Position numbers and translations under genes: made by a program. Below are positions 41,201 through 44,480 of a stretch of DNA of 64,000 nt, piece after piece. The first letter of the stretch is position 1; each line of letters starts with the position of its first letter. A model generated the notes under the pieces. The model had not been told where the DNA came from. It ran no database searches and saw only the letters and a list, made by a program, of their open reading frames with translations. This DNA is from Schleiferia thermophila (GTDB taxonomy: Bacteria; Bacteroidota; Bacteroidia; Flavobacteriales; Schleiferiaceae). The DNA is taken from NCBI RefSeq assembly GCF_003337435.1, contig NZ_QPJS01000001.1, positions 760,513 to 824,512 of the forward strand, in the 5' to 3' direction.

Positions 41201-42331
41201 TTATTCTTTAAATACTGGTAAAAGTTTGTAAAGTATTCCGTTTGTTTCATCGGAAAAATAAATATAGCCGTCGGGCGACTCCACAACATTTCGAATTCTG
41301 CCTTCGCCCTGAAACAGACGAGTTTCTGATACCAGTGTATGGTTCAAGAATCTGGTCATATTCAGATGCTGACCGACCAGAGAGCCAATGAACAGGTTTC
41401 CATTTAAGCCTGGATATTTATCGGATTTCAAAAAAGCCATACCGCAGGGAGCAATGCTTGGCGTCCAGTGATGAATGGGCTGCACTGTACCGGGATAAGT
41501 TGGCGGACCTATGGTGCCTCCACCGTATTGTTCGCCATATGTAGCTAAAGGCCAGCCGTAATTGTTACCCGGCTCGATGATATTGATTTCATCACCGCCT
41601 TGTGGACCGTGCTCGTGAGCCCACAATTTGCCTGTAGTCGGGTGAAAGTCCAATCCTTGGATATTTCGATGTCCATACGACCAGATTTCTGGTAAAAAGT
41701 CGGGTTTTCCTACAAAGGGATTATCTGCTGGTACACTGCCATCTTCGTTTAGCCGTAGAAGGCATCCCATGTGATTCAAGGTGTTCTGTGCCTGCTGCAT
41801 ATTGCCCCGGTCGCCAAGTCCGAGAAATAAATGACCCTTTCCGTCGAAAGCTATCCGACTTCCGAAATGCACACCACTATTGGAGCGTGCATTTGCCACA
41901 AAAATCTCCTCAAAATCGCTGATTGCTTCGTTTGAATATTTTGCTCTGCCCAGTGCAGTGGTGGGCTGTCCGTCAGCTATCTTCGAATAGCTGAAATAGA
42001 TTAATTTATTTTTTGAAAAATCCGGATGAAGTCTGATGTCCATAAGTCCGCCTTGCCCAAAAAGGATAGCGCCGGGTACTTTAAAAATATTTTTTTTGGT
42101 TCCTGTTGTAACGTTGGCCAAAAGTATATCGCCTGATTTTTCTGCTATCAATACTTCGCTTTCATTCAGAAAAGCCATGCCCCAGGGAATGTTAAGCTCA
42201 GTGACTACTGGTTGTTTGACTAATTCGAGATTTGCAGGGATTCCGGGTTTATCGGAAGGGTTTGTATTCTGTTTTTGACAACATAAATGACTCACGACAA
42301 GAGTACACAGTAAGGATTTTACTATTTTCAT
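41201..42331 (-). CDS. PQQ-dependent sugar dehydrogenase-like lipoprotein
   Basis: 376 residues from the ATG at 42331. The N-terminus (MKIVKSLLCTLVVSHLCC) looks like a lipoprotein signal with Cys at 17-18. The body is a six-bladed glucose/sorbosone dehydrogenase propeller: PWGMAFLNESEVLIAEKSG, GGLMDIRLHPDFSKN, HFGSRIAFDGKGHLFLGLGDRG and LWAHEHGPQGGDEINIIEPGNNYGWP, the last carrying His and Asp/Glu residues for PQQ and calcium. It would oxidise aldose sugars in the periplasm or at the outer membrane. It is divergent from the carbohydrate-binding cargo gene at 42431, a possible functional pairing. Confidence 0.9.
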   Translation of the reverse strand: MKIVKSLLCTLVVSHLCCQKQNTNPSDKPGIPANLELVKQPVVTELNIPWGMAFLNESEVLIAEKSGDILLANVTTGTKKNIFKVPGAILFGQGGLMDIRLHPDFSKNKLIYFSYSKIADGQPTTALGRAKYSNEAISDFEEIFVANARSNSGVHFGSRIAFDGKGHLFLGLGDRGNMQQAQNTLNHMGCLLRLNEDGSVPADNPFVGKPDFLPEIWSYGHRNIQGLDFHPTTGKLWAHEHGPQGGDEINIIEPGNNYGWPLATYGEQYGGGTIGPPTYPGTVQPIHHWTPSIAPCGMAFLKSDKYPGLNGNLFIGSLVGQHLNMTRFLNHTLVSETRLFQGEGRIRNVVESPDGYIYFSDETNGILYKLLPVFKE

Positions 42332-42380
42332 TATTTGGAAATACCTTTTAGCGAGTGGAAATATACACCTAAATAAAAAA

Positions 42381-42412
42381 TTTGGCAAGGTGTATTTAAT
42401 ACACTTACTTTG
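42381..42412 (+). promoter_or_regulatory. Promoter with an inverted repeat in its spacer (cargo gene)
   Basis: TTTG at 42381-42384 and TACTTTG at 42406-42412, with the -33/-7 spacing expected for Bacteroidota. The spacer contains GTGTAT (42390-42395), TTA, ATACAC (42399-42404), a 6+6 inverted repeat. A dimeric repressor bound there would block RNA polymerase. Start codon at 42431. Confidence 0.5.
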
Positions 42413-42430
42413 TGCAAAATACCTGATTCA

Positions 42431-44422
42431 ATGAAAAAATCGATACTATTCTTTTGTCTGTTGGTTACAATCAATATGGCTGGGCAAATGCGCTCTGTAA
42501 CTTTCAGGGTAGATATGAGTCAGCAATCCGTGGCAGCACAAGGTGTGCATATAGCCGGAAGTTTTCAGGGTTGGAATCCAGCCACCACACAAATGACGCT
42601 CACAGCTAATGGCGTATACACCTACACAGCGCAGATATCTCAAGGCACAAGCATTCAATTCAAGTATATCAATGGCAACACCTGGGCAGGTGAAGAATCC
42701 GTGCCATCGGCCTGTGGTGTTCCAAATGGTTTTGGAGGATTTAACAGGTCACTGACCGTAACTCAAGACACTATACTTCCGGTGGTGTGTTTTTCATCGT
42801 GTACTACATGTGCACCACTGCCTCCAACCAGCCTTGTCACGTTCAGAGTCAATATGTCCAATGTGGCCTCTGTCAGTTCATTTGGCGTACATATAGCCGG
42901 CAGTTTTCAAAACTGGAATCCAGCTGCTACTCCCATGCAGTCCAACGGTAGTGTATGGAGCTACACCGTAGCATTGCCGGTAGGGCAGTCGGTTCAATAC
43001 AAGTTTATCAATGGCAATGCCTGGGGTCAGGATGAAACCGTGCCCATCGCCTGCGGTACTGGCAGTCCGGTTAACAGGATTTTGACGGTTCCGGCCAATG
43101 ATACCATTTTGCCGGCGGTGTGTTTTGGTACTTGTGACACGCTTTGTCCTGTGATACCCCCGGCCCCGAAGAAGATGGTCACCTTCAGGGTGGACATGAG
43201 TCAGCAGACGGTAAGTGTCAATGGAGTTCATGTGGCAGGTAATTTTCAAGGCTGGAACCCGGCCAGTTCGCCCATGACTCTTGACACAACTACGGGTGTG
43301 TATATCCGGGTTGACTCAGCTTCAGTGGGCGATACGGTTTTTTACAAATTTATCAATGGCAATGCCTGGGGGCAGGACGAAACGGTACCCTCTTCCTGTG
43401 GAATAGGCTTTCCTTCGGTAAATCGATGGTTTGTGATGCCAAATACAGATACTGTTTTGCCTGTGGTGTGTTTTGGAATGTGTGGTCCTTGTCCTGTCCC
43501 TCAGCCTAAAAATGTAACCTTTAGGGTCGATATGAAAAATCAGACGGTTTCACCCAATGGAGTATATCTGGCTGGTAGCTTCAACAACTGGTCACCCTCG
43601 GCTACCCCAATGAGTGCAAATGGCTCTGTTTATTCGGCTACTGTGGTAATCAATGCAGGCACAACAGTGCAATTTAAATTTTTAAACGATTCAATATTTA
43701 GTGGTGCGGAATCAGTGCCTCCTGCCTGTGGTGTGAGCGACGGATTCGGGGGGTTCAACAGGATTCTTACCGTGGTGGAGGACACAGTTCTACCGGCTGT
43801 ATGTTTCGCGCTTTGCGACACTTGTCCTGTGCAATTACCGACTTCCAAAGTCACTCTCACTGTGTTGACCACCGGGACACAGGTTTCTCCCCAGGGTATG
43901 TACGTAGCCGGGACCTTCAATGGTTGGAATTTTACCCAGCATCAAATGACACTCATCAGCCCCGAAAAGTATCAGATCACACTTGACTGGCCTATAGGTG
44001 AACAAGTACTCTATCGATACTCAACGACCAATGGTGTAGGAGGTCAGGAACTGATTACGGGTTCCTGTGGTTATCTGGGTTCCAGACATCTGACTGTGCC
44101 GCCACAAGACACTCTGCTGCCTGATGTGTGTTTTAATCGATGCGACCTGGCATGTACTGCTATGGATGTAACGGAATCCACATTATTGAGGCCTTTGGTT
44201 CACCATCGCCGGGGACTTCTTACTGTGACCAATTTACCTACCGGCGGAACTCCTGTATATATCAAACTTATAGATTTATCGGGCAGAATTCTCCTTAATA
44301 AAATGGTTAACTCCGATGGACAATGGCAAGAACGCATAGAGCTTCCCACTGGAGTTTTCCTGCTTCAGATTACGACCGATATGGGTAGTCATATCACTAA
44401 GTTTCCTGTCAGTGGGTTTTAA
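42431..44422 (+). CDS. T9SS cargo with five tandem carbohydrate-binding-like repeats
   Basis: 663 residues from the ATG at 42431, with a signal peptide (1-19). Five about 112-residue beta-sandwich repeats start near residues 22, 135, 249, 361 and 472. Each begins VTFRVDM-like and carries GVHIAGSFQGWNP, a K/Y-F-INGNAWG-like segment, an xxCG Cys, and a closing CFxxCxxC, so four Cys per repeat, presumably two disulfides. The repeats resemble starch-binding CBM20/CBM48-like domains. The last about 85 residues (LLTVTNLPTGG, VYIKLIDLSGRILLNKMV, GVFLLQITTDMGSHITKFPV) are a type A T9SS sorting domain. No catalytic domain is present. Repeats 1 and 4 are most alike (GFGGFN), as are 2 and 3 (NGNAWGQDETVP). 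Confidence 0.9.
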   Translation: MKKSILFFCLLVTINMAGQMRSVTFRVDMSQQSVAAQGVHIAGSFQGWNPATTQMTLTANGVYTYTAQISQGTSIQFKYINGNTWAGEESVPSACGVPNGFGGFNRSLTVTQDTILPVVCFSSCTTCAPLPPTSLVTFRVNMSNVASVSSFGVHIAGSFQNWNPAATPMQSNGSVWSYTVALPVGQSVQYKFINGNAWGQDETVPIACGTGSPVNRILTVPANDTILPAVCFGTCDTLCPVIPPAPKKMVTFRVDMSQQTVSVNGVHVAGNFQGWNPASSPMTLDTTTGVYIRVDSASVGDTVFYKFINGNAWGQDETVPSSCGIGFPSVNRWFVMPNTDTVLPVVCFGMCGPCPVPQPKNVTFRVDMKNQTVSPNGVYLAGSFNNWSPSATPMSANGSVYSATVVINAGTTVQFKFLNDSIFSGAESVPPACGVSDGFGGFNRILTVVEDTVLPAVCFALCDTCPVQLPTSKVTLTVLTTGTQVSPQGMYVAGTFNGWNFTQHQMTLISPEKYQITLDWPIGEQVLYRYSTTNGVGGQELITGSCGYLGSRHLTVPPQDTLLPDVCFNRCDLACTAMDVTESTLLRPLVHHRRGLLTVTNLPTGGTPVYIKLIDLSGRILLNKMVNSDGQWQERIELPTGVFLLQITTDMGSHITKFPVSGF

Positions 44423-44446: not shown

Positions 44447-44480
44447 AACACCGGCATGTGTAGCCGGTGTTATTTGTTTT
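44447..44480 (+). terminator. Terminator of the carbohydrate-binding cargo gene
   Basis: AACACCGGC (44447-44455) pairs perfectly with GCCGGTGTT (44463-44471) around a 7-nt loop and is followed by ATTTGTTTT. It lies 25 bp after the cargo stop codon and before the facing paaC gene. The leftward side lacks a clean T run. Confidence 0.75.

Follow-up and report, generated by a model that had tools for sequence, protein, structure and literature searches.

The gene at positions 42431..44422 (+) of the window, by which we mean the whole analysed stretch of 64,000 nucleotides from Schleiferia thermophila, encodes a secreted protein of 663 residues that we believe, with a probability of about two in three, to be a non-catalytic, T9SS-displayed, multivalent binder of alpha-1,4-glucans (starch, glycogen, maltodextrin) acting through tandem CBM48/CBM20-type modules. 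The earlier note on this DNA had suggested a multivalent surface lectin or adhesin; this description is most likely best narrowed to an alpha-glucan-binding surface protein.

Architecture of the protein and its export

The limits of the gene follow from the open reading frame and the profile matches. A TTG codon opens a longer frame (42410..44422, +), and the 663-residue form with the signal peptide is read from the ATG at 42431. The signal peptide and the start of the mature chain, as judged by eye from the translation, occupy residues 1–22 (42431..42496, +) with a predicted helix at residues 2–14; no lipobox was seen by the same inspection around Cys9 of the signal peptide. The five repeats, 104–114 residues long and all on the plus strand, cover residues 23–135 (repeat 1, 42497..42835), 136–249 (repeat 2, 42836..43177), 250–361 (repeat 3, 43178..43513), 362–473 (repeat 4, 43514..43849) and 474–577 (repeat 5, 43850..44161). 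Every repeat, including the divergent fifth, carries four Cys residues, which accounts for 20 of the 21 present in the protein, the remaining one being Cys9. Protein identity among repeats 1–4 is 48–59% and that of repeat 5 to the others is 36–38%; direct DNA repeats with a spacing of ~330–350 nt were detected independently of the protein repeats. The chain ends in a T9SS type A sorting domain region of 86 residues (578–663; 44162..44419, +). A terminator-like stem-loop of nine pairs with a T-rich tail lies 3' of the gene (44447..44471, +), weakly supported, as four terminator-like sites were counted where shuffled sequences have 2.2 on average.

The earlier description of five repeats with four Cys each in a secreted protein, followed by a T9SS sorting domain and lacking a catalytic one, is borne out in all these points. 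Profile searches with Pfam and NCBIfam returned no catalytic family above cut-off in the 663-residue protein, and the tail matches TIGR04183 (NCBIfam, T9SS type A) with 29.6 bits at a cut-off of 23; the Pfam model Por_Secre_tail (PF18962) gives 13.6 bits on the same tail and stays under its cut-off of 27. The genome encodes SprA (SprA_N, 557.6 bits, contig C3) and contains 57 matches to T9SS tails, one of which sits on a GH13 frame of 970 residues on contig C5. By its sorting domain and the presence of SprA in the genome, the five-repeat protein is a predicted T9SS type A cargo, and its signal peptide and tail suggest that Sec and then the T9SS would carry it to the cell surface.

Fold, sugar-contact residues and probable cysteine pairs of the repeats

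Several curated models match the whole protein well above their cut-offs: Pfam AMPK1_CBM (PF16561, 94 bits, cut-off 26.8), CBM_48 (PF02922, 81.8 bits, cut-off 22.4), CBM_20 (PF00686, 48.5 bits, cut-off 23.3) and the pullulanase X25 domain (40 bits, cut-off 27). When single repeats are scored against AMPK1_CBM in the genome search, repeat 2, which gives the top match (37.1 bits), and repeat 4 (27.4 bits) exceed the cut-off, and repeat 1 alone gives 23.4 bits and falls under it. With phmmer, repeat 2 matches the AMPK beta-1 GBD (1z0n) at E 2.5e-05 with W100, K126, W133 and N150 aligned. A structure model of repeat 2, computed from 68 sequences (one repeat of the window and 67 of the 251 relative repeats described below), is a carbohydrate-binding beta-sandwich with pLDDT 96.0. 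In the structural database search, which was made with repeat 2 only, the top VIA match of this model is the STBD1 CBM20 with maltotetraose (Z 10.5), followed among others by the CBM20 of GPCPD1 (Z 10.4), glucoamylase (Z 9.7) and the AMPK GBD (Z 9.6), and Foldseek concurs. Of the 50 best structural rows, 49 carry the names of CGTases, amylases, glucoamylases, AMPK or CBM20/starch-binding domains; the exception, 4rkk at rank 28, bears no label beyond that of a product-bound phosphatase. The full-length model, built from nine sequences with eight relatives picked by hand for the alignment, contains five beta modules and a beta tail domain (mean pLDDT 82.7); its module arrangement is not fixed (pTM 0.30) and it was left out of the fold searches.

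By profile and predicted fold, then, the repeats are members of the CBM48/CBM20 superfamily, and the comparison of one modelled repeat with CBM20 and CBM48 structures that the earlier note had called for yields just the beta-sandwich it expected, with CBM20 and the AMPK GBD as best matches. Its further suggestion that the repeat family may deserve a domain definition of its own holds in part: PF16561, PF02922 and PF00686 already cover the repeat core, so such a definition would be merited by the Cys-bearing C-terminal extension only. A new domain family for the entire repeat was ruled out, several curated Pfam models scoring above cut-off.

For the sugar-binding site we compared four AMPK positions, W100, K126, W133 and N150, the last of which is taken to be a sugar contact. 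The quartet W, K, W, N is intact in repeats 1–3; in repeat 4 it reads W, K, F, N, with Phe in place of W133, and repeat 5 keeps the first Trp and has lost the other three residues. According to PMC2642990, W100, K126, W133, L146 and T148 of AMPK touch the sugar, and mutating them lowers glycogen binding. Because of the state of the quartet, binding of alpha-glucan at an AMPK-type site is likely in repeats 1–3, plausible in repeat 4 and unlikely in repeat 5.

The same residues can be followed through the relatives of the gene. The search for these gave 514 repeat hits in 140 loci; the residue counts take loci L064–L140 only, where 305 hits cover at least 85% of the model and 251 were retained after a redundancy filter, the alignment of divergent repeats (e.g. 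in L078 and L105) being uncertain. The quartet is intact in 160 of these 251 repeats, or in 179 when Phe counts as a match at position three. The Glu of a 'DE' motif (251/251) and the Arg of an 'NR' motif (249/251) are better conserved than the sugar-contact residues, and may possibly form a family-specific salt bridge or a second site.

All four Cys are present in 217 of the 251 relative repeats, and exactly the second and the fourth are absent in 24. Counted without regard to the relatedness of the repeats, 29 repeats lack both C2 and C4, three lack C2 but have C4, and none lacks C4 while having C2; six lack both C1 and C3, one lacks C3 but has C1, and none lacks C1 while having C3. From this co-loss we infer the disulfide pairs C1–C3 and C2–C4. 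The AMPK1_CBM match of repeat 2 stops at residue 224, which corresponds to profile position 83 of 85, so that C2, C3 and C4 of this repeat (residues 231, 235 and 239) fall outside the known domain, on its C-terminal side. What is specific to the family would then be a Cys-braced C-terminal extension with two Cys pairs, apparently new relative to Pfam. Two disulfides per module may lock this extension and stabilise the module outside the cell.

Orthologues, repeat history and genomic context

Full-length orthologues were found in Thermaurantimonas aggregans (73% identity) and in an uncultured Flavobacteriales MAG (71%). The identity is unevenly distributed, being 69–85% in the repeats, 28–35% in the tail and 41–55% in the signal region; the frame is free of stops in all three genomes and the four Cys are kept in every repeat. 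In a tree of 45 rows the repeats cluster by position across the three orthologues, and therefore the five-repeat layout is older than their split. In the same tree repeat 4 joins a repeat of a paralogue, and repeat 5 joins the last repeat of that paralogue.

The alternating similarity proposed earlier, of repeat 1 with 4 and of repeat 2 with 3, is weak. The pairwise protein identities are 58% for 1–4 and 59% for 2–3, but also 57% for 1–2 and 58% for 2–4. The tree of the 15 repeats of the three orthologues contains the 2+3 clade in its best form with weak support (73/86). Six pairings of repeats 1–4 were tried on this set; the five besides 2+3 all escape rejection at p-AU 0.05, the lowest value being 0.094 (1+2), and the 1+4 pairing (p-AU 0.41) is neither shown nor rejected. 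A 1+4 / 2+3 duplication pattern is possible.

Upstream, the repeat gene stands head-to-head with a gene of the glucose/sorbosone dehydrogenase family (GSDH; 41201..42388, -; PF07995, 395 bits). The same pair occurs in both orthologue loci, although the remaining immediate neighbours are different there; certain further genes of the window recur within the Thermaurantimonas stretch. No GH13 gene stands beside the five-repeat gene, whose neighbours are GSDH and PaaC-like genes, and neither SusC nor SusD was found there, the only SusD_RagB match of the genome being on contig C2.

The family at large keeps closer company with GH13. In the same genome, a T9SS repeat protein of 439 residues is encoded as the divergent neighbour of a GH13 gene. 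When the positions of repeat matches and of PF00128 matches were compared by eye in 13 same-family genomes (G000–G012), GH13 lay within ~1.5 kb of a repeat gene in nine (G000, G001, G004, G006, G007, G008, G009, G010 and G012), with divergent orientation in eight of the nine. G005 and G011 have both GH13 and repeats, but at separate places as far as the PF00128 type is concerned; neither repeat nor PF00128 matches were obtained in G002 and G003. In G004 (2525 aa; also C20) and in G010 (C29), GH13 is encoded in the same open frame as repeats. Among 77 named loci, 16 contain a GH13-like ORF, inside the matched ORF in four and separate in 12, these 12 cases representing a few look-alike groups and not 12 independent events; the chance expectation is ~2.3 GH13 ORFs over 864,510 bases, given the seven GH13 ORFs of this 2.6-Mb genome.

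Non-GH13 carriers of the modules include a subtilase (L110), esterase-like proteins with dockerin (L084, L094), an fn3/MAM protein (L093), a PA-domain protein (L119) and an SprB/PKD protein (L105), and the quartet is often intact in modules on such carriers.

Some single frames may be recorded here. The 2525-residue frame of a same-family genome (L045:4923-12497) combines a GH13 catalytic domain, nine repeats, fn3 and a T9SS tail; a Sphingobacteriaceae MAG encodes 2264 residues with a subtilase, a PA domain and four repeats, all with the quartet intact (L110:4054-10845); and an 1813-residue open frame of a Flavobacteriales MAG has 15 repeats (L073:5983-11421). A second repeat gene is split between contigs C1 and C9, breaking off at an end of each (L037:7490-8545 and L036:3-1295), with the same residues at the break in both pieces, and a Thermaurantimonas frame of 665 residues (L075) is its counterpart.

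Alternative readings, known systems and implications

Some observations weigh against the presumed glucan ligand. The five-repeat gene has no GH13 gene beside it, repeat 4 has Phe for Trp, repeat 5 has lost three of the four quartet residues, and modules of this type are also found on a subtilase, on esterase-like proteins and on PA-domain and SprB/PKD proteins, a range by which they may act in targeting more generally or bind some other ligand. We consider it rather unlikely that a surface protein of the same fold recognises another glycan, such as a mat or capsular polysaccharide or the cell's own exopolysaccharide, and works as an adhesin or matrix protein instead of in glucan feeding. Such a role would suit both this variety of carriers besides GH13 and the position of the gene outside any glucan locus; it sits poorly with the AMPK-type quartet kept in repeats 1–3 and with the family's repeat genes adjoining GH13 in nine of 13 same-family genomes. 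Sugar binding is absent from some CBM48/E-set domains, and the present modules could likewise have kept the CBM fold while sugar binding was lost or became incidental, the disulfide-braced modules forming a structural or protein-binding stalk, with which the loss of most of the site in repeat 5 and the low pTM of the full-length model would be compatible. The retention of the site Trp, Lys and Asn in repeats 1–3 and in 160 of the 251 relative repeats, needless in a pure spacer, makes this quite improbable. That the gene is a degenerate, decaying one without function is hardly credible: the divergence of repeat 5 speaks for it, and the stop-free frame in three genomes, the conservation of the repeats by position at 69–85% and the four Cys of every repeat speak against it.

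If the protein is the alpha-glucan binder that we prefer, modules 1–3 and, more weakly, module 4 would each grip one glucan chain, and module 5 may be a structural cap adjoining the sorting tail. Through the avidity of several modules, glycogen or starch in solution could be retained on the cell surface close to the GH13 amylases of the same cell, to which, as the family context suggests, the captured glucan would be handed over.

With the AMPK beta GBD/CBM48 (PF16561, PF02922) the window protein shares the fold, the profile match and, in repeats 1–3, the equivalents of W100, K126, W133 and N150; it differs in having five modules in tandem, in being secreted, with neither a kinase nor a GH13 partner joined to it in one polypeptide, and in carrying, beyond what the Pfam model matches, a Cys-bearing C-terminal extension that AMPK does not have. 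The CBM20 domains of STBD1, CGTase and glucoamylase (PF00686) are the best structural matches of repeat 2 (Z ~9 to 10.5) and their profile scores above cut-off, whereas the identity of repeat 2 to CBM20 structures is low, mostly 20–30%. As a rule, CBM20 domains occur singly and are joined to an enzyme. A tandem, T9SS-displayed, Cys-extended module or motif of this kind was not found described in the literature searched, mostly non-subscription; this form is a variant of CBM48/CBM20 modules. Sas20 of Ruminococcus bromii is a component of the Firmicutes amylosome with other CBM families. It is a flexible surface starch binder (PMC9112005), a kind of binding that is presumed for the window protein.

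The SusE and SusF proteins of the Bacteroides starch utilisation system are also non-catalytic multi-module surface binders of alpha-glucans, a binding that for the window protein is presumed. In PMC8211771, both are presented as surface alpha-glucan binders, SusE being lipid-anchored and encoded after susC/susD; the window protein instead has a T9SS tail, without a lipobox and without adjoining SusC/SusD. The SusF_N profile gives 22.3 bits on it, under the cut-off of 28, and there is a weak match to the SusF structure 4fe9 (E 0.19). For lack of a lipobox, of adjoining susC/susD and of a SusF_N score above cut-off, membership in SusE/SusF was ruled out, and the best explanation, by analogy, is that the window protein may work like SusE/SusF while not being one of them.

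More tentatively, and with some doubt on our side, one may imagine a disulfide-latched CBM48/CBM20 subfamily serving the Bacteroidota, the Flavobacteriales above all, as a non-catalytic, tandem, T9SS-displayed 'flypaper' that replaces SusD/E/F where SusC/D are scarce and feeds surface GH13 enzymes, with cyanobacterial glycogen as its target in a hot-spring relative. Direct predictions follow from the coupling of the two Cys pairs and from the conserved presence of GH13 near the family's repeat genes. If alpha-glucan binding is true, the protein would offer a disulfide-stabilised binding module that is easy to test, from an organism that is probably moderately thermophilic, and would point to a T9SS-based capture of storage glucans among those Flavobacteriales in which SusC/D loci are few, as in the present genome with its one SusD_RagB match.
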